A DNA stretch of 64,000 bases, taken from positions 310,001 to 374,000 of the forward strand of contig NZ_VTWU01000003.1 in the NCBI RefSeq assembly GCF_008727865.1. Direction: 5' to 3'. Origin of the DNA: Hymenobacter busanensis. GTDB lineage: Bacteria; Bacteroidota; Bacteroidia; Cytophagales; Hymenobacteraceae. The notes beneath the pieces are model-generated. The model saw nothing but the letters and a program-made list of their open reading frames with translations, searched no databases and was not told the origin of the DNA. Both the position numbers and the translations under genes were made by a program. Positions 47,311-59,206 of this stretch are shown here, piece after piece; within the stretch, counting starts at the first letter, position 1; every line of letters starts with the position of its first letter.

Positions 47311-47448
47311 GGGGAAATCGGGGAGGGGAAAAGTGGGGGAGCAGTTCGGCCCAAAGATACCGCCCCGGCGGCGCATGTGGCGCGGCAGCCGTCGGGTTTC
47401 GGGCGCTTATACGCAGCCCGCGGCCGGGCTGGCAAAGTGCCGCCGCTT

Positions 47449-47456
47449 TATCTTTG
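47449..47456 (+). promoter_or_regulatory. -7 promoter box at the patatin gene start
   Basis: tatctttg matches TAnnTTTG and ends 4 bases before the ATG at 47461, the same geometry as at rlmN, implying a leaderless transcript. Confidence 0.5.
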
Positions 47457-47460
47457 GCCG

Positions 47461-48546
47461 ATGCTGTTTCGCCGCTGTTTTTTCCTGCTCGCACTGTTTT
47501 CGAGCCTGCTGAGTGCGCCCGGCCTGGCCCAAACCACTCCCGCGCCCACCTACCGCAACCTGGTGATGGAAGGCGGCGGCATTCGGGGCATTGCCTACGG
47601 CGGGGCCTTGCAGGAGCTGGAGGCGCGGGGCGTGCTCGGCGGTATTCAGCGCGTGGGCGGCACTTCGGCCGGGGCCATTCAGGCCGCGCTGCTGGCCGTG
47701 GGCTACGCGCCGCAGGAAATTATTGCGGTGGTGAACCGCACGCCCGTGCAGCGCCTCAACGACGGCCGCTTCATCTTTTTCGGCGGCTCGCACCGGCTGG
47801 TAAAGCAGTACGGCTGGTACCGCGGCGACCAGTTTTCGAAATACCTGAGCGAACTGGTGGCCCGCAAAACCGGCAACGGCAACCTCACCCTGGGGGAGCT
47901 GCACACGCTGGCCCAGCAGCAGCCCGGCCGTTACCGCGACCTGTACACCACCGGCACCAACCTCACCGCCCAGCGCGTGCAGGTGTTCAGCTACGAAACC
48001 CACCCGCACCTGCGCGTGGCCGATGCCGTGCGCATCAGCATGAGCATTCCGCTGTACTTCCGCGCCGTGCTGCTCGATGCCGAAGGCCGCGTGGTGCACG
48101 GCAAGCCCGCCGAAAGGCAGCACGTGGAAGTGCTGGTGGACGGCGGCTTGCTGGCCAATTACCCCATCGATTTGTTTGATGATGCGCGCTATCTGGGTGT
48201 ATCGGCTTCCGATACGCTGCCAGCTGCCGGCCCGTTCGTCAACCCCGAAACCCTGGGCCTGCGCCTCGACCGCGCCGAGCAGATTGCCCTCGATACCCTG
48301 GCCAACGGCCGGCAGGCGCTGGCGCCTTATGACATCCATTCGTTCGGCTCCTACATGGGCGCGCTCTACACCGTGGCCATCGAAAACCTGAACCCCGCGC
48401 AGCCACAGGACTGGCGCCGCACGGTGAGCATCAACACGGCCGGCTTCAACCCGAAAATCAAGCGGCTGAGCGACGAGCAGAAGCAGACCCTGGTGAGCAG
48501 CGGCCGGCAAGGCGTGCAGGCGTTTATGCAACGGGCACAGCGGTAG
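47461..48546 (+). CDS. Exported patatin-like phospholipase
   Basis: A 361-residue lipid acyl hydrolase with a signal peptide (LLALFSSLLSAPGLAQ). It shows the oxyanion loop MEGGGIRGIAYGGAL (near residue 36), the nucleophile GTSAGAI (Ser about 69) and the catalytic Asp of VDGGLLANYPIDLF, so the Ser-Asp dyad is complete. It probably cleaves fatty acyl chains from membrane lipids in the periplasm. There is no POTRA or barrel domain, unlike PlpD. Confidence 0.9.
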   Translation: MLFRRCFFLLALFSSLLSAPGLAQTTPAPTYRNLVMEGGGIRGIAYGGALQELEARGVLGGIQRVGGTSAGAIQAALLAVGYAPQEIIAVVNRTPVQRLNDGRFIFFGGSHRLVKQYGWYRGDQFSKYLSELVARKTGNGNLTLGELHTLAQQQPGRYRDLYTTGTNLTAQRVQVFSYETHPHLRVADAVRISMSIPLYFRAVLLDAEGRVVHGKPAERQHVEVLVDGGLLANYPIDLFDDARYLGVSASDTLPAAGPFVNPETLGLRLDRAEQIALDTLANGRQALAPYDIHSFGSYMGALYTVAIENLNPAQPQDWRRTVSINTAGFNPKIKRLSDEQKQTLVSSGRQGVQAFMQRAQR

Positions 48547-49994: not shown

Positions 49995-51242
49995 ATGTAC
50001 ACTACCCTCCAACCCGACCTCCAGCAGCAGCTCCAGGAAATCAAAGACGCGGGCCTCTACAAGAAGGAGCGCATCATCACCAGCCCGCAGGGGGCCGAGA
50101 TTGAAACCACCGAGGCCGGCGAGGTGCTCAACTTCTGCGCCAACAACTACCTCGGCCTCTCGTCGCACCCCGAGGTCATTCGGGCCGCCAAAGAGGCCAT
50201 CGACACCCACGGCTACGGCATGTCGTCGGTGCGCTTCATCTGCGGCACCCAGGACATTCACAAGGAGCTGGAGGCCAAGCTGGCCGAGTTCCTGGGCACC
50301 GAGGATACCATTCTCTACGCCGCGGCCTTCGACGCCAACGGCGGGGTGTTCGAGCCGTTGTTCAACGAGCAGGACGCCATCATCAGCGACGCGCTCAACC
50401 ACGCCTCCATCATCGACGGCGTGCGCCTGTGCAAAGCGCAGCGCTACCGCTACAACCACAACGACATGGCCGACCTGGAAAAGCAGCTCCAAGACGCCCA
50501 GGCCAAGGGCACGCGCCACCGCATCATCGTCACCGACGGCTCGTTCTCCATGGACGGCACCATCGCGCAGCTCGACAAAATCTGCGACTTGGCCGACAAG
50601 TACCAGGCCCTCGTGATGATTGACGAATGCCACTCAATGGGCTTCCTCGGCAAAACCGGCCGCGGCACCCACGAGTACCGCAACGTGCTGGGCCGGGTCG
50701 ACATCATCACCGGCACGCTGGGCAAGGCACTGGGCGGGGCCATGGGCGGCTTCACCTCCGGCCGCAAGGAAATCATCGACATGCTGCGCCAGCGCAGCCG
50801 CCCGTACCTGTTCTCGAACACCCTGGCCCCGGCCATCGTGGGCGCGTCGCTGCGGGTGCTGGAGCTGCTCACCGAAAGCACCGAGCTGCGCGACCGGCTG
50901 GAGGAAAACACCAAGTACTTCCGCGAGAAGATGACCGCCGCCGGCTTCGACATCAGGCCCGGCGAGCATCCCATCGTGCCCGTCATGCTCTACGACGCCA
51001 AGCTGGCCCAGGAATTTGCCGCCAAAATGCTCGACAAGGGCATTTACGTGGTGGGCTTCTACTTCCCGGTGGTCCCCAAAGGCCAGGCCCGTATTCGGGT
51101 GCAGCTGAGCGCCGCCCACACCCGCGCCCACATCGACAAAGCCATTCAGGCGTTCATCGAAGTCGGCCGCGAGCTGGGCACCATCAAGGAGCCCTCGGCC
51201 CAGCAGCCCGAAGCCGGTCAGGTGGTCACGAACACGCCGTAA
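49995..51242 (+). CDS. kbl: Glycine C-acetyltransferase (2-amino-3-ketobutyrate CoA ligase)
   Basis: A 415-residue PLP enzyme of the alpha-oxoamine synthase family that splits 2-amino-3-ketobutyrate with CoA to glycine and acetyl-CoA. Marks are [65 protein letters not shown] and the PLP lysine in [28 protein letters not shown] favours Kbl over serine palmitoyltransferase or BioF. A Gln/Pro-rich tail of 20 residues is extra. With the threonine dehydrogenase at 46315-47310 it completes threonine breakdown. Confidence 0.94.
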
Positions 51243-51320: not shown

Positions 51321-52454
51321 CTACTCCTTGCGCATCGGCTCAATGGGTTCGGTCCGGCCGTCGGGGCGGTGCCTGAGTTCGGTGACTTTCACGTTGCGCA
51401 GGTACGACTTGCCCGACAGTTGGGTGTCGTGGTAAAAAAGATACCACTTACCCTTGTGTTCGATGATGGAGTGGTGCGTAGTCCAGCCCTGCACGGGGTT
51501 CAGGAGGATGCCTTGGTACTTGAAGGGCCCGTAAGGCTGGTCGCCCACGGCATAGACAAGCAGGTGCGTGTTGCCGGTGGAGTAGGAGAGGTAATACTTG
51601 CCTTGGTACTTGTGCAGCCAAACGCCCTCGAAAAAACGCCGCTTGGTGTCGCCAGCCAGCAAGGGCTTGCCGTTTTCGTCCAGTATCTGCACTTCCTTCA
51701 CCGGCTCGGCCAAGGAGCGCATGTCGTTGCTCAGGCGCGCCACCCGCGGCCCCATAGCCACTTCCTGGTCTGGCAAGTTGGGCGCGGCGGTGCTGTCGTA
51801 CTGGCCGGTGCGCCAGCGCTGCAGCTGCCCGCCCCAGATGCCGCCAAAGTACAGGTAGCTCCGGCCGTCGGTATCGGTATACACCGCCGGGTCGATGCTG
51901 TAGGAGCCGGTAATCGGCTGCGGCTCGGCCTTGAAGGGGCCGGTGGGAGAAGTGCTGGTGGCCACGCCCAGGCGAAATACGTCGTGCTTGTCCTTCACCG
52001 GGAAGTAGAGGTAATACAAACCGTTTTTAAATTCAGCGTCGGGGGCCCACAGCTGGCGGCGGGCCCAAGGAATATCCTGCACGTCGAGGGCGACGCCGTG
52101 GTCGGTTACCGGGCCGCCAACGCTGTCCATCGACAGCACGTGGTAGTCGCGCATGGCGAAATGGGCCCCGTTGGCACCTTCGGTGACGCCCGACTCGATG
52201 TCGTGCGAGGGGTAAATGTAAATCCGGCTGTTGAACACGTGCGCCGACGGATCGGCGGTGTAGATGCCGCTCACCAGCGGCTGCGACAGGTAATGGAGCT
52301 GGGTTGCTGGCGTGGGCGTGGCAGCAGCAGGTGCCGGGGCAGCCGAAGTAGCCGACCGTGGCGCGTGGCTGATCTGGCAGGCGCCGGCCAGCAACAAGGC
52401 GGTGGTCCAGCCGAAAAGGCCACGTTGCACACTGGAGAGAAAAAAAATACCCAT
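51321..52454 (-). CDS. Glycoside hydrolase family 43 lipoprotein
   Basis: A 377-residue five-bladed propeller glycosidase. The leader ends LLLAGAC, a lipobox, so the enzyme is anchored in a membrane. Family residues: the base Asp in GIYTADPSAHVF, the pKa-tuning Asp in GSYSIDPAVYTDTDGRSYLY and the acid Glu in KRRFFEGVWLHKYQGKYYL. It probably removes arabinose or xylose from plant polysaccharides; no SusC/SusD pair is near, so it is not in a typical utilisation locus. The Ala/Pro-rich segment after the lipidated Cys (residues 30-50) is a linker. Confidence 0.9.
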   Translation of the reverse strand: MGIFFLSSVQRGLFGWTTALLLAGACQISHAPRSATSAAPAPAAATPTPATQLHYLSQPLVSGIYTADPSAHVFNSRIYIYPSHDIESGVTEGANGAHFAMRDYHVLSMDSVGGPVTDHGVALDVQDIPWARRQLWAPDAEFKNGLYYLYFPVKDKHDVFRLGVATSTSPTGPFKAEPQPITGSYSIDPAVYTDTDGRSYLYFGGIWGGQLQRWRTGQYDSTAAPNLPDQEVAMGPRVARLSNDMRSLAEPVKEVQILDENGKPLLAGDTKRRFFEGVWLHKYQGKYYLSYSTGNTHLLVYAVGDQPYGPFKYQGILLNPVQGWTTHHSIIEHKGKWYLFYHDTQLSGKSYLRNVKVTELRHRPDGRTEPIEPMRKE

Positions 52455-52561
52455 GCTGGCCTAAAAACGAACCTGTATCGTAGCACAAGAAACAAACCGG
52501 CGGAAGCATTCTGGCTACTCCTGCCTAGTCGGCAGGGCTACGGTTTCCCGGCCATGACGAT

Positions 52562-55500
52562 TCAGGCGGCTTCTTTAAGTTCGGCCCGTCCGCGACTCAG
52601 GGAATGGGGAATGGCTGCGAACAGGCGTTCGATGAGGGGCAACAAGCCCACAATAGCCGCCAAGACAGTTTGCAACTCGCTCAGGAAAGTGCGTTGGGTG
52701 GTGAAAATAAACAAGGCGCCCGCCGATAGCAGCAGCAGCAAGGGCACCCGCTGTTCGGCCCAGGAGGTGTTTTCCTCCTCGTCCTGCTGCTCGTAGCGCA
52801 GGGCTTGCTGGCGCGGCACAGCCGATATGATGTGGTTGCGGAAGCTCTCGTTGACGACCCGCAGGCGGCCGTGCTTGTCGACCCGCACAAATCCTTTTTG
52901 CAGCAGCGAATCGAGGGCCTCCACGTTTTGCCAGTTCACCAAGCCGTCCTGCGCCAGGTCGAACAGCAAGTGCTGCTCGTGCGGGGTAAGCATGCGCCAC
53001 AGGCTGCGGAAATAAAACTGCGCCATCCGTTCAATGGTAAGTACCACGTTTTCGCGCTCCATGCGCTGGCCGCTGGCCAAGCGGGCCTGCAATGCTTGGC
53101 TCAATTGGGGCTGAATGGCTTGCAAAAACGGCATGGAGTGGCATTCCCGCTCAAAAAATGCGGTGACATCGTCGGAAATAGGGGGCACAGAGGCTTGGTC
53201 GGGAGCGGGCGATGTGAGCGGCAGGTATTCGGTGCGGAAATACGCAAGGCAGTCGAGCAGGTCGATGCCTGCCTGCCGCTGCGCTTGGTGGGCCGCGTCG
53301 TCGCAATCCGCCTCGGTACCGTGGGCGCAGGTAGCCAATGCCACCGGGTGCACCCGCGACAGAATATGTACCGGGGCGCCGCGCTGCACCAAGTATTCCA
53401 CCAGCAGGCGTTTGCGCAGCGTCAGGGGCGCATCATGAAAACGGTAGTCGAAGTGTTCGACCACCACGGGAAGGGCCGCGTCGGCGGAGGCAAGGTGGTT
53501 CACCCAGGCGTTTATGTCCTTGGCGTCTAGGGGCAGCAGTTCGGCATCGAGCCGGTTGGCGCCGGTGAGCGAAGCCTGCAAATCAGCCGGTAAATCGGCC
53601 ACGCGGCTGCCGTTGGGCGCAATCAGCACGCGGTGTTGGCAGACGCCACTTGTGCATGGGGGTTGCACAAGCGGGGTTTGGGCTTCGGAGCGGTGGGTGC
53701 GGAAAGTAGGCAGAAACAACCGCCGCAGGGCGTACAGCACCAGCGCGTACAGCGCCACCAGCACGCCCACCGTCATTAGCTGCAGCCCCAGCCGCCAGGA
53801 AATAGGATGCTGGAAAAAGCTGGTGGGCCGCATAAACCAGTGCGTACCCGCGTACAGACCATCGATGCGCGCCGCTAGGCCGGCGGGCGCCTCGGGGTAT
53901 GGGCTTCGAATGCGGATAACGTCGTTGAGCAGCGGGCGGCCCGTGCCGCTCATGCCCGTGAAGGCGTATTGCCAGTCGGGGTCGATGCGCGGCGGCGCGG
54001 CCGTAGCCGTGGCGGGCCGGTCCAGGGCCAGTTGGTCGGGGCTGCTGGCCGATTCTACCAGTTGGTGCAACAGTTGGGTAAAGGCCAAGTTGTTCTGCGC
54101 CGCTACGTCGCGCTGCGCGTTCAGCTGCCGAGTAAGCCACTCGACCACCGGGCGGGCCGAGGCGGAGGGCGCCGCCGACGTAGGAGCCGAAAACGGGCGA
54201 GTTTCAAAGAAAAACGTGTAGTAATGATTCACCGACGACCAGCCCGCCGCCGGCGGCCGCACGTTCTGGGAAGCATTGATGCGCTGTAGCAGCTCGGTGT
54301 GCGCATAGTGTACCTGGTAGGCTCGCTCGATGCCGTAGGCTATCTGGTAGCAGTATACCGCCGGCAAAATTCCCAGAATCAGGATCCAGCCGAGCGTCAT
54401 GGCCACGTAGGTGTACTGGTAGGTGCTGATGCCCCAGTAGCGCGCCAGCCCCCGCAGGTTCTTGATGGCTTGGGGAATGAGGGCCTTGGTCCAGGTCTTT
54501 TCGGCCGCGCGGTGTATCGGCTGCAAATGCTTGTGGGTGCGAGCCTGCAGGCGTTTGGCCCAGGCCGGCAGCCAGCCGTGTTCTTGCCCCAGGCGCCACA
54601 CCACGCTGCCCAGCGCCGCTTGGTAAATAAGGGCATAGCAAGCATGCACCGCGCCGGTATAAAGCACAATCAGCAAATTGATAACGGTCAGCGTAGCCAC
54701 CAGCAGGTACAGGATAGCCCGCGACTCGTTGCGCGTTTCCTGCTGCAGCCGCAGCAACCGGAAGGTGAGGGCGTAGACGTAGAGTGGGAGCAGCAGTAAC
54801 AGGTACAGCTGCAGCACCGGACTCACAAAGCACCCGGTGAAGAAAAAGCCCACAATGCCGAACGCCTGTGCTAATGCAATGCGGGCGTAGCGTTTGGCAT
54901 AGGAACGGCGCGGCCACAGGCTGGGAAAACTGTTACGCGAGGTGCTCAGCAGCCGCGACGTAGGCCGGAACAAGCGCCGCAGCAACCCAAACATGCCCAC
55001 GCACATCCAGAAGCCACCCAGCAACAACGCCCCACCCCACAACGACTGCACCTGCCGCTCGCGCACCGGCTGCAACGACGCAAACGTGGCCAAAAACATG
55101 CGCAAACCCGGCAGCGGCTCTATGTGCAGCAAGTGCGGCTGGCCCTGGTAGTGCACCTTGGTGGTAGTGGCCCGCTGGCTGAACATGGCCGAACGCAACG
55201 CACCCGGCGAGTCGCAGTCCTGGAGCAGGTTTTCGCTCAGGTTCAGGTTCCGGTCGGAGTGCAGCAGCACCTGCCCGGTGTGGTCGAGCAGGCAGAAGCC
55301 GTAGCCCGGTGGCAGCACCGGTTGGTCGAGGCTGCGCAGCCGGGTATCGACGATGCACACGCTGGGCGAAGTATCTGCCGTTGCCGAATCGGGTTGCCAC
55401 CGACTGCGCCGCGCCAGCACGGCACTGGGCCGCGCATCTTTATAGGAAATAATGGCTTGGAAGTAGAATGCAGAATCCCCCGCTGCCGGAGTCCGCCAAA

Positions 55501-56938
55501 CGCCGGTGGAGGTAGAGCGGGTAGTGGGCAGCGTGTGGTACTGGCCCGCCTGGGTTGCCTGAAAATAGGGCCGTTGAGCTAGGTTGGGTACGTACAGCGG
55601 GGCTTGTCGTCCGGCGGCGAAACACACGTACCCGTTTCTGTCGATCCACAGCGCGTGGTTGCCGACGTGCTGGAAATACCGCGCAGCGGCCGTGCCGGGT
55701 AACGAATCGTAAGCCACCTTGCGCACAAAGCCCGCTGGGTAGTCTTGCGCATTTCGCAGGGTCGGGTGGGTAGAAAAGTGGTCGTCCAGGCCCTGGGCCA
55801 ACTGATTTAGCGAGTCCAACTCGCCGTACAAATTGGTTTGCACTTCGGTGTTCAGTTGGGTGAGCTGCTTGGTCAGCAGCCGTTGTTCCAGCGCCTGCCG
55901 GCCAATGCCCGATTGCAGCGCCAGCAGTACAATGCCGGAGCCCAGCACCAACGACGCCGCGCAGCGAATCACATCGGCCCGGTTCAGCCGTTCGCGGGAG
56001 CCCATGAGGGCCAGCTTCAGAAACGGCAGGCTCAACAAACCCAGCAGCAACAGCAGCAGCGCCAGTTCCACCACCTGCGGGGCCACCGCCCGCTGTTCGG
56101 CCGTAAACGTATCCATCGACACCGCACCGCACAGCAGCAGGGTGTTGGCATCGAGCCGGAGCGGCTGTACAAACAGTCGGTACGAACGCCCGGCCAGCAG
56201 CACGTCGGCGGTGCGCCCGGCGTGCAGGGCCGCGGTGTCGCCCAACCACGCCGGCAGTTTGCTGCTGCCGGCTACCGAGAGGATGCTGGGAGTGGTGCCG
56301 TAGAGCAGCCGTTGGCTTTTCAGGTCGCAAATGAAAAAATGCTGGAAGACCTCGGGGCGGGTAAGGCCGCGCGCGAAGCTGTCGATAGGTACGGCCGTGA
56401 GCAGCTCCAGGCCGCTGGTACGTGGTGCCTGCCCCGGGGCATTGCCCCATTTCCAATCCTGCAGCCGCAAACTCGGCGGCGGAAAATCGTGGAAAGCCAG
56501 GCGGTTGTCGTGCACTTCCACCGTCGGGGCCGTGCGCTGGGGCAGTCTGGCATACCGCACCACCGAGAGCAGCTCGTTGCTGGCCTCGGGGCTGAAACGC
56601 TCCCAAGTCGGCGTTATGTAGGCTCGCAGATCTTCTTTCCCAGCAGTGTCGGCGGCCGGTTTTGCGGTCCATTGCACCGCGGGCGCACTGGCCTCGCCCC
56701 AATCCTGCCGCGCAATGCGCGCAGCCAGGCCTTCGTTGATTTTGTGGTGGGCCGTTACCTTCTCCATGAAGTTGTGGCCTACCTGCTCCAGAACCCGGAA
56801 ATAGCGGGCATTGAGGCGTTCGGTTTGCTGCGGAATGTACCCGTAGGTATAGCCCATCAGCAGCAGAAAGATGAAACCCGACAATCCCAGAGTCCCCAAG
56901 TGCCGCTTGAGAGCCTGCACGAACGATTGTTTTGGCAT
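52562..56938 (-). CDS. 1458-residue multi-sensor membrane protein of unknown class
   Basis: ATG at 56938 (MPKQSFVQALKRHLGTLG) starts a frame with no stop to 52562. Layout by hydropathy: helix at about 16-34; extracytoplasmic region 35-287; helix 288-310; helix 325-343; extracytoplasmic region 345-630 that looks Cache-like (IDRNGYVCFAAG, LAQRPYFQATQ, AFYFQAIISY, LLDHTGQVLLHSD); helix 633-652; helices 687-782 (about four); helix 846-868; third extracytoplasmic region 869-1045; helix 1050-1075; cytosolic region 1076-1397; two C-terminal helices 1397-1436. The cytosolic part has a Cys/His cluster (1095-1102, 1204-1212), VVVEHFDYRF and VHILSRVHP (Walker-B- and sensor-like without a visible P-loop) and a winged-helix-like stretch 1317-1372. 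There is no kinase, GGDEF, HAMP or chemotaxis domain. Monocistronic; function unknown. Confidence 0.85.
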   Translation of the reverse strand: MPKQSFVQALKRHLGTLGLSGFIFLLLMGYTYGYIPQQTERLNARYFRVLEQVGHNFMEKVTAHHKINEGLAARIARQDWGEASAPAVQWTAKPAADTAGKEDLRAYITPTWERFSPEASNELLSVVRYARLPQRTAPTVEVHDNRLAFHDFPPPSLRLQDWKWGNAPGQAPRTSGLELLTAVPIDSFARGLTRPEVFQHFFICDLKSQRLLYGTTPSILSVAGSSKLPAWLGDTAALHAGRTADVLLAGRSYRLFVQPLRLDANTLLLCGAVSMDTFTAEQRAVAPQVVELALLLLLLGLLSLPFLKLALMGSRERLNRADVIRCAASLVLGSGIVLLALQSGIGRQALEQRLLTKQLTQLNTEVQTNLYGELDSLNQLAQGLDDHFSTHPTLRNAQDYPAGFVRKVAYDSLPGTAAARYFQHVGNHALWIDRNGYVCFAAGRQAPLYVPNLAQRPYFQATQAGQYHTLPTTRSTSTGVWRTPAAGDSAFYFQAIISYKDARPSAVLARRSRWQPDSATADTSPSVCIVDTRLRSLDQPVLPPGYGFCLLDHTGQVLLHSDRNLNLSENLLQDCDSPGALRSAMFSQRATTTKVHYQGQPHLLHIEPLPGLRMFLATFASLQPVRERQVQSLWGGALLLGGFWMCVGMFGLLRRLFRPTSRLLSTSRNSFPSLWPRRSYAKRYARIALAQAFGIVGFFFTGCFVSPVLQLYLLLLLPLYVYALTFRLLRLQQETRNESRAILYLLVATLTVINLLIVLYTGAVHACYALIYQAALGSVVWRLGQEHGWLPAWAKRLQARTHKHLQPIHRAAEKTWTKALIPQAIKNLRGLARYWGISTYQYTYVAMTLGWILILGILPAVYCYQIAYGIERAYQVHYAHTELLQRINASQNVRPPAAGWSSVNHYYTFFFETRPFSAPTSAAPSASARPVVEWLTRQLNAQRDVAAQNNLAFTQLLHQLVESASSPDQLALDRPATATAAPPRIDPDWQYAFTGMSGTGRPLLNDVIRIRSPYPEAPAGLAARIDGLYAGTHWFMRPTSFFQHPISWRLGLQLMTVGVLVALYALVLYALRRLFLPTFRTHRSEAQTPLVQPPCTSGVCQHRVLIAPNGSRVADLPADLQASLTGANRLDAELLPLDAKDINAWVNHLASADAALPVVVEHFDYRFHDAPLTLRKRLLVEYLVQRGAPVHILSRVHPVALATCAHGTEADCDDAAHQAQRQAGIDLLDCLAYFRTEYLPLTSPAPDQASVPPISDDVTAFFERECHSMPFLQAIQPQLSQALQARLASGQRMERENVVLTIERMAQFYFRSLWRMLTPHEQHLLFDLAQDGLVNWQNVEALDSLLQKGFVRVDKHGRLRVVNESFRNHIISAVPRQQALRYEQQDEEENTSWAEQRVPLLLLLSAGALFIFTTQRTFLSELQTVLAAIVGLLPLIERLFAAIPHSLSRGRAELKEAA

Positions 56939-57340
56939 AAAAATCAACGAAGTCGCGTAAGGCGGCTGTCCGACTGCCGGGGCTATAAAGCTCCGCAGCA
57001 GGCAAAAGCTGCCATTCAGAAAAGCCAACGATGGCAGCACCCAGGTGCGAGGTACTGGTAAGCGACGGAGCGTAGTATGGAATAAGGCGGGCTGGGTAGT
57101 AGATAAAAGCCCTGTTAGCCAAGGGCTAACTTGCTAAACATAGCAAAATAGGCGTAGAACGGAAAACAGTTGAATTATAAATTTTCAGTAGTGAAACGGC
57201 TGCCGGTCAATGACTACTTGATGTAGCTCTTTGGGCAGCCCGTTATGCAGTCAGCGTTCTGCTCCTTCCCTGCAACAGCAAGCCCCGAAGCGTGACGCAC
57301 TCCGGGGCTTGCTGTTGCAGGGAAGGAGCTGCCAGCCGGA
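56939..57340. other. Intergenic region between the 1458-residue protein gene and cdaA
   Basis: About 57120-57200 is AT-rich and likely carries the promoter of the large minus-strand gene; the box cannot be placed exactly. The long hairpin at 57261-57329 ends the cdaA transcript. No coding frame is seen. Confidence 0.55.
57261..57329 (-). terminator. 27-bp perfect hairpin after cdaA
   Basis: Arm 57261-57287 (gctccttccctgcaacagca onward) pairs exactly with 57303-57329 around a 15-base loop. It lies 11 bases after the cdaA stop. No T run follows on either strand, so it may act as an RNA 3' stabiliser or a factor-dependent end rather than a classic intrinsic terminator. Confidence 0.7.
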
Positions 57341-58189
57341 TTACGCCGCTACCTCCTCGGCCGAGGAGCGGGCTGAGGCGGCCGACGAGGCCGGCTTGGC
57401 TTGCACGTCGAACAAGAACTCGTTGAGCTTGCCGCGCAAGTCGCTGGTCGAGAGGTTGCGGTACACTTCGCCGCCGTGCACGAGCGAAATCTGCCCGGTT
57501 TCTTCGCTCACTACCAGCACCACGGAATCGGTCATTTCACTCAAGCCGATGGCGGCGCGGTGGCGCAGGCCCATAGAAGCCGGCACGTCGGGATTCTCGC
57601 TCACGGGCAGAATGCAGCGTGCCGCCTTGATGCGGCCGTTGCTGATGATAACCGCGCCGTCGTGCAAGGGCGAGGTTTTGTTGAAGATGCTCATGAGCAG
57701 GCGCTTGCTCACGGCCGCATCGAGCAGGTCGCCCGACTCGGCGTAGAACTTCAAGTCGGAGGCTTGCTGAAAGGCAATGAGCGCGCCGGTGTTCTTGCTG
57801 GCCAAGCTTTTAGCAGCCTCTACGAACGGCGTTACGCTCATGCGCTGCTGGGGCTGCTCGCGCCGCCACGAAAACATGCGCATCCGCTCGAAAGCCGTGG
57901 CCTTGCCGATGTTGAGCAGAAACCGCCGGATTTCCTGCTGGAACAGGATGATACCCGCCAGCACGCCCACCGACATAAACTGCCCCAGAATCATCGTCAG
58001 CAGCTCCATGCCGGCGGCCTTCACAACCAAGTACACGAGGTACACCGATAGAAAACCCAGGAAAATGCGCAGCGCCACCGAGCCCGTCAGCAACTTGTAA
58101 ATCTGGTAGAACAGCGCCGTCACCAATACCACGTCGACGACGTCGATCCAGCCGATGCGCAGGAAGCCGATGTTGACGGGGTTGAACAT
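57341..58189 (-). CDS. cdaA: Diadenylate cyclase CdaA
   Basis: A 282-residue enzyme making c-di-AMP from two ATP. Three membrane helices (residues about 15-32, 38-58, 66-86) precede a short coiled linker and the DAC domain with the DGA motif (177-179, in LHDGAVII) and RHR motif (209-211, in MGLRHRAAIGLSE). The C-terminal 25 residues are Ala/Ser-rich. It follows folP by 5 bases, an order common in Bacteroidota; in Firmicutes cdaA sits with glmM instead. Confidence 0.95.
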   Translation of the reverse strand: MFNPVNIGFLRIGWIDVVDVVLVTALFYQIYKLLTGSVALRIFLGFLSVYLVYLVVKAAGMELLTMILGQFMSVGVLAGIILFQQEIRRFLLNIGKATAFERMRMFSWRREQPQQRMSVTPFVEAAKSLASKNTGALIAFQQASDLKFYAESGDLLDAAVSKRLLMSIFNKTSPLHDGAVIISNGRIKAARCILPVSENPDVPASMGLRHRAAIGLSEMTDSVVLVVSEETGQISLVHGGEVYRNLSTSDLRGKLNEFLFDVQAKPASSAASARSSAEEVAA

Positions 58190-58194
58190 GGTAC

Positions 58195-59076
58195 TCAGGA
58201 GCTAAGGACGGACTGAACGAGCTGCACGGTTTGGTGGGCTTCGGCTACGTCGTGCACGCGCAGCAGGCGGGCGCCGCCCAGCAGGGCCAGCGTGTTGAGG
58301 GCAATGGTGCCGGGCAAAGCCGCTTCGGGCGCGAGGCCCAGCGGTTTCCATACGAGCGTTTTACGGGAAAGTCCAACCAGCAGGGGCAAATCCAGCACCG
58401 TACGCAGCTCGGACAGGCGCCGAATGATTTCGTAGCCCTGCTGCGGGGTTTTGGCAAAGCCCACCCCGGGGTCGAGCACCACGCAGGCATCGGGCCAAAG
58501 GGCGCGCAGGGCCGTGAGCTGGTCGCGGAAGAAGCGCGTCAGCTCCAGCAGCAGGTCGCCCTCGTAGGTGGTGTGCTGGGTCATGGTTTGCGGCGTGCCG
58601 CGCATGTGCATCAGAATGTAGGGTACCCGCAAACGCGCCACGGTGGCAAACATTGCCTCGTCGAGCTGCCCGCCGCTGATATCGTTGACGATGTCGGCGC
58701 CGGCCTGCACGGCCTGCTCGGCCACCGCTGCCCGGAACGTATCGACCGACAGAAACGCCTCGGGAAAGGTGCGGCGCAAGGCTTCGAGGGCGGGCACCAC
58801 GCGGCGCAGCTCCTCGTCGGCGGGCACGTCGTCGGCGCCGGGGCGCGAGGAGTAGCCGCCTACGTCGAGCACGGCAGCACCGGCCTGCAGCATCTGCTCG
58901 GCTTGGCGCAGTAGGGCGCTTTCGTCGGGCAGGCGGCTGCCGGCGAAGAACGAATCGGGCGTCACGTTCAGGATGCCCATCACGCGCGGTTGGCTCAAAT
59001 CGAGCATGCGGCCGCGGGCACACCGCAGCGTTTGCCTGACCTGAAAGAGCGTATCTTGCGCGGCTTCGCCCAGCAT
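58195..59076 (-). CDS. folP: Dihydropteroate synthase
   Basis: A 293-residue enzyme joining p-aminobenzoate to 6-hydroxymethyl-dihydropterin diphosphate in folate synthesis; it is the sulfonamide target. Visible marks: VMGILNVTPDSFFAGSR, DVGGYSSRPGADDV, SVDTFRAAVAEQAV, VNDISGG, LMHMRGTPQTMTQH, LDPGVGFAKT and GLSRKTLVW. ATG at 59076 (MLGEAAQDTLFQ) was preferred to the far upstream in-frame start at 59181. It is the first gene of the folP-cdaA unit. Confidence 0.95.
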   Translation of the reverse strand: MLGEAAQDTLFQVRQTLRCARGRMLDLSQPRVMGILNVTPDSFFAGSRLPDESALLRQAEQMLQAGAAVLDVGGYSSRPGADDVPADEELRRVVPALEALRRTFPEAFLSVDTFRAAVAEQAVQAGADIVNDISGGQLDEAMFATVARLRVPYILMHMRGTPQTMTQHTTYEGDLLLELTRFFRDQLTALRALWPDACVVLDPGVGFAKTPQQGYEIIRRLSELRTVLDLPLLVGLSRKTLVWKPLGLAPEAALPGTIALNTLALLGGARLLRVHDVAEAHQTVQLVQSVLSS

Positions 59077-59206
59077 GGGTACAGCGTGTTTAGTGACGTT
59101 GAGCGGGTGCTTGGTACGCGCCAAAAGCGGCGCGAGAAAAGACTCTTTTCTGCAACCTGCTAAGCAATAAGTACTAAGCACCTAGCCCTGTCTTAAAAAT
59201 AGCCTT

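Follow-up and report, generated by a model that had tools for sequence, protein, structure and literature searches.

A Cache-type membrane receptor of Hymenobacter busanensis with a degenerate STAND module, a possible switch for lipid-attacking enzymes

The subject of this study is a membrane receptor gene in a stretch of 64,000 nucleotides of the Hymenobacter busanensis genome (contig NZ_VTWU01000003.1, positions 310,001 to 374,000), called the window below. The gene (52562..56938, minus strand, as all features of the receptor given below) has homologues in relatives and codes for 1458 amino acids. The protein may be a membrane-anchored, degenerate STAND (NLR-like) and ligand-gated receptor that acts as a switch for lipid-attacking effectors, a reading to which we give a probability of about one half. 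That the receptor licenses an enzyme at the membrane is proposed because a STAND remnant appears to be held at the membrane, the output end is conserved and the neighbours in relatives are mostly lipid-acting. The frame opens with ATG at 56938, closes with the stop at 52562 and has zero internal stops in 1458 codons, while the plus-strand reading of the same interval contains stops. Thus the 1458-residue frame described in an earlier note, made from the DNA letters alone, is real and its strand is minus. The frame is not an artificial fusion created by a sequencing error, since intact homologues of 1187-1571 amino acids with the same order of parts are present in many genomes.

The receptor anatomy is well supported by sequence and models. 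About 12 transmembrane helices were counted by eye from the hydropathy profile and two AlphaFold models, the same number as the hydrophobic segments reported earlier; by the hydropathy scan alone, the window protein has nine segments and each of nine homologues 9-12. The scan picked up the first helix (residues 12-34; 56837..56905; within model helix 4-81) in all nine homologues, but missed it in the window protein. The three extracytoplasmic regions of the earlier note are consistent with the scan and with positive-inside loops, namely residues 655-685 with eight Lys plus Arg and no Asp or Glu, and residues 761-843 with eleven basic and two acidic residues. Region 1 (residues 35-287; 56078..56836) is modelled as a single Cache/PAS-like domain. 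VIA-align superposed model residues 32-283 on the YycG/WalK sensor 5is1 (Z 11.9, root-mean-square deviation (rmsd) 3.2, 131 residues aligned), with further rows for 7dud_A (Z 11.5) and 4ywz_A (Z 11.4); the AlphaFold model of this region includes stretches with a predicted local distance difference test score (pLDDT) under 60. Region 2 (residues 343-633; 55040..55912) had been credited with a Cache-like look, and both VIA-align and Foldseek indicated a double Cache (dCache) fold. It aligned with 3lif_A (Z 14.0, rmsd 3.6, 232 residues) and with PctA (5t65_A; Z 13.6, rmsd 3.3, 227 residues). The best Foldseek match of the extracytoplasmic model was DctB (3by9_A, E 2.7e-6) among 87 matches at E <=0.001 for the whole model. 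In the model, two PAS-like subdomains follow a long helix and lie between two membrane helices, the layout of dCache domains. The Pfam profile dCache_1 stayed below its curated cut-off of 45 bits wherever tested: the window protein reached 15.3 bits (E 0.015) and relatives at most 41.5 bits, with E-values from 1.5e-10 (L053; loci are numbered L, genomes G) to 6.5e-9 in four of six relatives with a P-loop and 6.6e-6 in L072, and no match in L007, L048 and L056. Region 3 (residues 865-1048; 53795..54346) has a pLDDT under 50 from residue 913 onwards. A match of the window protein to Pfam HIG_1_N (E 0.039) and other sub-threshold Pfam matches were set aside as chance.

The cytosolic part is read as a degenerate STAND module, its P-loop-type fold being suggested by model and alignment coverage only. 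An AlphaFold model of residues 1050-1458 (mean pLDDT 81.7, predicted template modelling score 0.73) displays the parallel beta/alpha order of a STAND/AAA-like nucleotide-binding domain (residues 1100-1241; 53216..53641), an assignment shared by VIA-align, followed by a winged-helix domain (residues 1314-1390; 52769..52999) and a C-terminal two-helix membrane hairpin (residues 1391-1444; 52607..52768; model helices 342-365 and 367-393). VIA-align listed 50 rows for this model with Z between 7.5 and 10.5, and 12 of the listed rows aligned at least 227 residues (Z 7.9-10.5): eleven NLR or CED-4 structures and the archaeal ATPase 2qen, which we take to be a STAND protein. These 12 best-covering rows extend to model residue 323-363, i.e., through the winged helix. 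Representative alignments were obtained with WRR4A (9qlv_A; Z 10.5, rmsd 5.6, 239 residues), RPP1 (7dfv_A; Z 9.7, rmsd 8.2, 257 residues), CED-4 (2a5y_C; Z 8.6, rmsd 5.6, 239 residues) and 2qen (Z 8.7, rmsd 6.3, 234 residues). Profile searches returned little: nSTAND1 of Pfam matched one relative (L056, E 0.014, below cut-off) and not the window protein, in which Pfam also found no DNA-binding profile and no kinase, cyclase or methyl-accepting output domain; NCBIfam had no match to the window protein; PADLOC had one to L058 (E 0.0064) and none to L056 or the window protein; and sequence searches of the PDB with the whole protein and with a cytosolic profile gave no match of use (best E 0.16). 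Mean conservation was highest in the winged helix (2.54 bits), followed by the hairpin (2.22 bits) and the nucleotide-binding domain (1.86 bits); thus the output end is the part that is kept. The long NLR-like alignments, the P-loop of relatives, the Walker B-type strand and the weak nSTAND1 match of L056 are the reasons for the degenerate STAND reading, and the degenerate STAND/AAA-like module with a winged helix that the earlier note had put forward gains weight from the AlphaFold model, the VIA-align rows and that P-loop.

Motifs were counted in 54 intact family rows, eight from the Hymenobacter clade and 46 others. A P-loop of the form G-x-P-G-[SA]-G-K was present in 17 of 54 relatives, followed in all 17 by Leu or Met and never by Ser or Thr; the Walker A pattern GxxxxGK[ST] is absent from the window protein and complete in none of these 17. 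The window's Hymenobacter clade has no P-loop, and in the window protein the place of Walker A is RVLIAPNGSRVADLPADLQ (residues 1103-1121; 53576..53632), without GxxGxGK. The Walker B-like strand LPVVVEHFDYRFH (residues 1156-1168; 53435..53473) and the sensor-like strand VHILSRVHP (residues 1190-1198; 53345..53371), both pointed out before, are found in the window protein, and H1162, F1163, D1164, Y1165, S1194, H1197 and P1198 belong to the top 40 conserved cytosolic positions. The corresponding Walker B-type strand of relatives, LVIINHFEYN, carries Asn or Asp at the position of the usual Asp, the window protein Glu. Since none of the P-loop members found has the Thr/Ser of Walker A and the window's clade lacks the P-loop altogether, nucleoside triphosphate hydrolysis probably does not drive the switch, which in that clade perhaps does not depend on a nucleotide at all. 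A Cys/His cluster had also been noticed. Just after the sensor strand, eight of eight rows of the Hymenobacter clade and none of the 46 others have the motif C-x-H-x(4-6)-C-x(4)-H, so the cluster is specific to this clade; in the window protein it reads CAHGTEADCDDAAH (residues 1205-1218; 53286..53327), a possible metal site.

The receptor family is patchy; distantly related proteins built in the same way occur across Bacteroidota. No relative came up in an initial contig scan that used only the window protein as query. As query, the window protein detected the family in three of 58 relatives and in seven of 395 genomes of the phylum. A profile of eight rows reached ten of these 395, three of which (G195, G287, G388) were partial matches at loci without a family-like frame and were set aside as chance. 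Within the window's family, profile A2 found 11 of 204 genomes and three of six genera; within the window's own genus, one of eight genomes (G000-G007) has it. Across the order, a profile of the cytosolic part detected 17 of 291 genomes in 15 of 115 genera. The best frame comprised at least 1195 residues in 15 of these 17 and was broken in the other two (G010, G643), therefore the cytosolic module is always found within a large receptor. Phages gave no match to the family. When 84,980 species genomes were scanned for a single winged-helix pattern, 33 loci came up; this choice of pattern favours members whose winged helix is well preserved. The final set comprised 56 loci, duplicates being counted once (L024=L056, L026=L066, L028=L075, L102=L046, L105=L047, L106=L049, L107=L045, L135=L061); L058 and L074 are near-identical, come from different species and were both retained. 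Left out were the broken copy of G643 with two stops, a contig-end copy (G447) and a match on a Persicobacter plasmid. The tree was calculated by a quick method and has ten long branches and three joins with warnings. At L008 and L069 the receptor gene is split into frames. Two genomes have two members each, G264 (L025, L109) and G826 (L132, L133), one of the two standing beside a Tle1-like lipase.

An attack-type enzyme gene of one of five kinds lies next to the receptor gene on the same strand, at a distance of -32 to 66 bp, in 16 of the 56 loci; the enzymes act on lipids or proteins or generate oxidants. The partner is a patatin in nine loci (L046, L047, L103, L104; L048, L057; L056, L064; L140), a Tle1-like lipase in three (L053, L025 and, in two frames, L133), a subtilase-caspase-DUF7379 protein in two (L068, L072), an animal haem peroxidase in one (L131) and a GMC oxidoreductase in one (L137); for each kind, Pfam confirmed the domains in at least one case. 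The partner patatins form four groups, between which identity is at most 25% or BLASTP gives no match at 1e-3. Against a background of 34 patatins in nine genomes (2-8 per genome), nine adjacent pairs were seen where about 0.1 would be expected in 56 loci, an estimate that takes about one gene per kb. Tle1-like genes occurred in five of 13 genomes searched; the only copy stands beside the receptor in G833, G264 and G826, whereas G193 and G547 have a copy located away from it. The caspase proteins (L068:12916-18666, L072:2902-8427) comprise 1842-1917 residues with subtilase, caspase and DUF7379 domains. Their DUF7379 carries GTSRG or GRSRG and has no PDB relative by sequence; such a GxSxG motif supports, and does not show, a lipase-like hydrolase. 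The earlier note had described a one-protein system standing alone. This holds for the window, where the gene is alone, but not for the 16 loci with an adjacent enzyme, nor for the nearest relatives with their patatin; likewise, the constant neighbours looked for at its suggestion exist in that part of the family and are lacking in the other 40 loci.

In the proposed mechanism, a small ligand would be bound in the periplasm by the double Cache domain, and the membrane helices would shift. The STAND remnant and winged helix, tethered at the membrane by the hairpin, may then set the partner enzyme free, or draw it in and activate it. This enzyme, usually a phospholipase, would work at the inner face of the membrane and damage or remodel the envelope. 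Peptidoglycan hydrolases beside some members could complete lysis. Ligand, coupling and outcome are here inferred. Only tentatively do we extend this to a bacterial transmembrane NLR by which small molecules read by Cache domains would, via a membrane-tethered STAND/winged-helix module, trigger programmed lysis through exchangeable lipid-attacking enzymes, in some members together with peptidoglycan hydrolases. In the Hymenobacter clade the nucleotide site would have been abandoned and a Cys-His-Cys-His metal site gained next to it, ligand and metal running the switch in place of a nucleotide.

Several results count against the switch reading. For the cytosolic model, Foldseek gave no PDB match at E <=0.001; its list consists of AAA+ proteins (ORC as the best at 3.0e-3, ClpX, DnaA), with Avs4 at 0.073. 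In VIA-align, DnaA-type AAA+ rows tie with the NLR rows in Z, but they align 113-180 residues, i.e., the first domain only. An adjacent partner of the five kinds is lacking in 40 of the 56 loci, the window included, and in ten of ten rows of the main Mucilaginibacter clade. The 16 partner loci are not independent, since four, all from a single Hymenobacter clade, inherited the same patatin from a common ancestor. The genomes used for the patatin and Tle1 backgrounds were mostly chosen for having the neighbour, and the patatins of L056 and L064 are without GxSxG by pattern. Together, patchy linkage, orphan copies and broken copies speak against a single fixed mechanism. The receptor could instead signal to an unlinked cytosolic target, e.g., a cell-envelope or second-messenger pathway, the adjacent enzymes being incidental or late additions. 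The 40 loci without such a neighbour would agree with this, as would the position of the window gene among the housekeeping genes cdaA, folP-like and kbl-like. However, the cdaA-kbl neighbourhood is common only to the Hymenobacter loci, the 16 partners of five kinds lie adjacent and on the same strand, and four patatin groups together with three sole-copy Tle1 genes are hard to put down to chance, so we consider an unlinked target unlikely, if the strongest of the alternatives.

The copy in the window itself lacks the linked patatin. The gene order is cdaA, patatin, receptor and kbl in H. crusticola (L046), G547 and G558, and patatin, receptor and kbl in H. metallicola (L047); the patatin of this locus lies 50-66 bp upstream of the receptor in the nearest relatives and 2 bp upstream in a fourth. 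The Hymenobacter clade (eight rows, support 100) contains four rows with and four without the patatin, and the window protein groups with L046 (42% identity, support 88). In the window the patatin position of these relatives (56939..57340) is empty and holds no remnant: tblastn detected patatin similarity only at another patatin (47518-48537). The genome contains no counterpart of the linked patatin, the best hit reaching 48% over 60 residues, to other patatins. Its enzyme is therefore encoded at another site, or the receptor is an orphan; as there are four other patatin matches in this genome, a trans-acting enzyme is possible. The second patatin gene of the window (47377-48546) has a signal-peptide-like N-terminus by eye. 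It was rejected as the partner: H. crusticola and G547 have its counterpart on the far side of kbl in addition to the first patatin. The window gene might also be a relic, an orphan receptor heading for loss after the patatin went, as the missing counterpart, the occurrence of the family in a single genome of the genus and the broken copies elsewhere (L008, L069 and G643) could suggest. We regard this as improbable, for the 1458 codons are intact, the conserved winged-helix, hairpin and Cys-His residues are retained, and long-lived orphans exist in Mucilaginibacter.

Peptidoglycan hydrolases are encoded close to the receptor in six loci (L047, L048, L068, L072, L132, L070; four by Pfam, two by tblastn). 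At L047, L048, L132 and L072, hydrolases with CHAP or Amidase_2 domains share the receptor's gene run, and no evident signal peptide was seen by eye in the N-termini read. These six loci, the naming of the Tle1-like lipases (Pfam PF09994) after type VI effectors and an eCIS_core protein as upstream neighbour at L134 (248 bp) would suit neighbours that serve injection systems as toxin cargo or lytic enzymes, the receptor regulating their release or protecting the cell. Such a role is quite improbable: no sheath or tube genes were noticed by eye in the neighbour lists, within a few genes, and a sensor of 1400 residues is, to our knowledge, unlike known immunity proteins. Least probable of all is a membrane-bound transcription regulator with a DNA-binding winged helix, because this domain, although the best conserved cytosolic part, is not basic (nine Lys plus Arg, 12 Asp plus Glu), matches no Pfam DNA-binding profile and is held between the nucleotide-binding remnant and the membrane hairpin, placed as in NLRs.

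The remaining genes around the receptor were assigned by Pfam. Upstream lie, on the minus strand, cdaA (57341-58189; DAC, E 1.5e-41, and CdaA_N) and, beyond it, a folP-like gene for a pterin-binding enzyme (58195-59181). Downstream follow a GH43 gene (51321-52454, minus strand) and a kbl-type aminotransferase gene (49995-51242, plus strand), "kbl" being a name assigned here. The gap of 402 bp between cdaA and the receptor gene (56939..57340) contains an inverted repeat of 30 nt with 97% complementarity (57261..57329), which separates the two genes and is probably the terminator hairpin of cdaA; no T-run was found at it. A dispersed repeat was rejected, as the sequence is single-copy in the genome. 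The receptor had been thought to have its own promoter and terminator-bounded neighbours. The boundary stands upstream, where the inverted repeat sets it off from cdaA, and fails downstream, where no inverted repeat of at least 12 nt occurs in 52430-52620; for the promoter, the gap gave one sigma-70-like match against 1.1 expected and no TAnnTTTG, which does not bear the claim out. Among the relatives, a membrane protein of about 414 residues is encoded near six loci (L056:4918-6159, L053, L064, L132:5269-6522, L134, L070); the L056 copy has no Pfam match, and L070 matches over 44 residues only. The eCIS_core protein of L134 (10115-13573) comprises 1153 residues.

STAND switches have mainly been described as sensors of invaders in the cytosol, and Cache domains as input modules for chemoreceptors, kinases and cyclases. 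If true, the proposed switch would tie the sensing of extracellular small molecules to a death- or lysis-type output via exchangeable phospholipases, and would reveal how an NLR-like module functions with a decayed nucleotide site. Compact receptor-enzyme pairs in Hymenobacter crusticola, Pedobacter sp. Leaf194 and Hufsiella arboris make this directly testable. The receptor resembles plant NLRs (NB-ARC), CED-4 and archaeal STAND ATPases in the order of nucleotide-binding domain and winged helix and in the modelled fold, and the P-loop is common to STAND NTPases and those 17 relatives. It differs from them in being polytopic, in extracytoplasmic sensors that replace the repeats, in a Walker A that is incomplete or gone, in the C-terminal membrane hairpin and in an effector that is a separate gene. 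Catalytically inactive STAND proteins are already known: the iSTAND ternary conflict systems combine one with MoxR-vWA, occur in Bacteroidetes and are in some cases predicted near the membrane, according to the accessible part of Kaur et al. 2020 (PMC7159879). The receptor family would resemble them in its presumably inactive STAND part, its occurrence in Bacteroidetes and its proposed action near the membrane; however, that part of the source describes no Cache receptor and contains none of the words "patatin", "cache" and "lipase". An iSTAND ternary system was rejected for the receptor family because no MoxR is linked: none of 14 genomes has a MoxR-type match less than 100 kb from the receptor gene on its contig. 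In the open-licence literature searched, no description of a Cache-STAND receptor or of a receptor-phospholipase pair was found. EACC1 and EACC2, as far as the accessible parts of the sources go, join a constant caspase part to variable partner domains (PMC7159879, PMC8195603), extracellular CHASE2 sensors of small molecules and STAND domains being alternative variable ends (PMC8195603); the receptor, in contrast, carries both sensor and STAND remnant on a single chain, and what varies is the enzyme partnered with it. Against an EACC1-associated model, the L072 caspase scored 27.4 bits, below the cut-off of 140. The patatin of L048 is similar to the CapV-like patatins of cyclic oligonucleotide-based antiphage signalling systems (NCBIfam NF041079, 128.9 bits, cut-off 200; PADLOC PDLC00758, E 1.4e-47), and those of the window's clade gave a weak PADLOC match only (E 0.0013). 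Unlike in these systems, the patatin's neighbour is the receptor and not a nucleotide cyclase, judging from neighbour lists read by eye only. With the dCache chemoreceptors and sensor kinases PctA, DctB and Mlp24 the receptor has the extracytoplasmic double Cache fold in common, whereas its output end has no kinase, cyclase or methyl-accepting domain.

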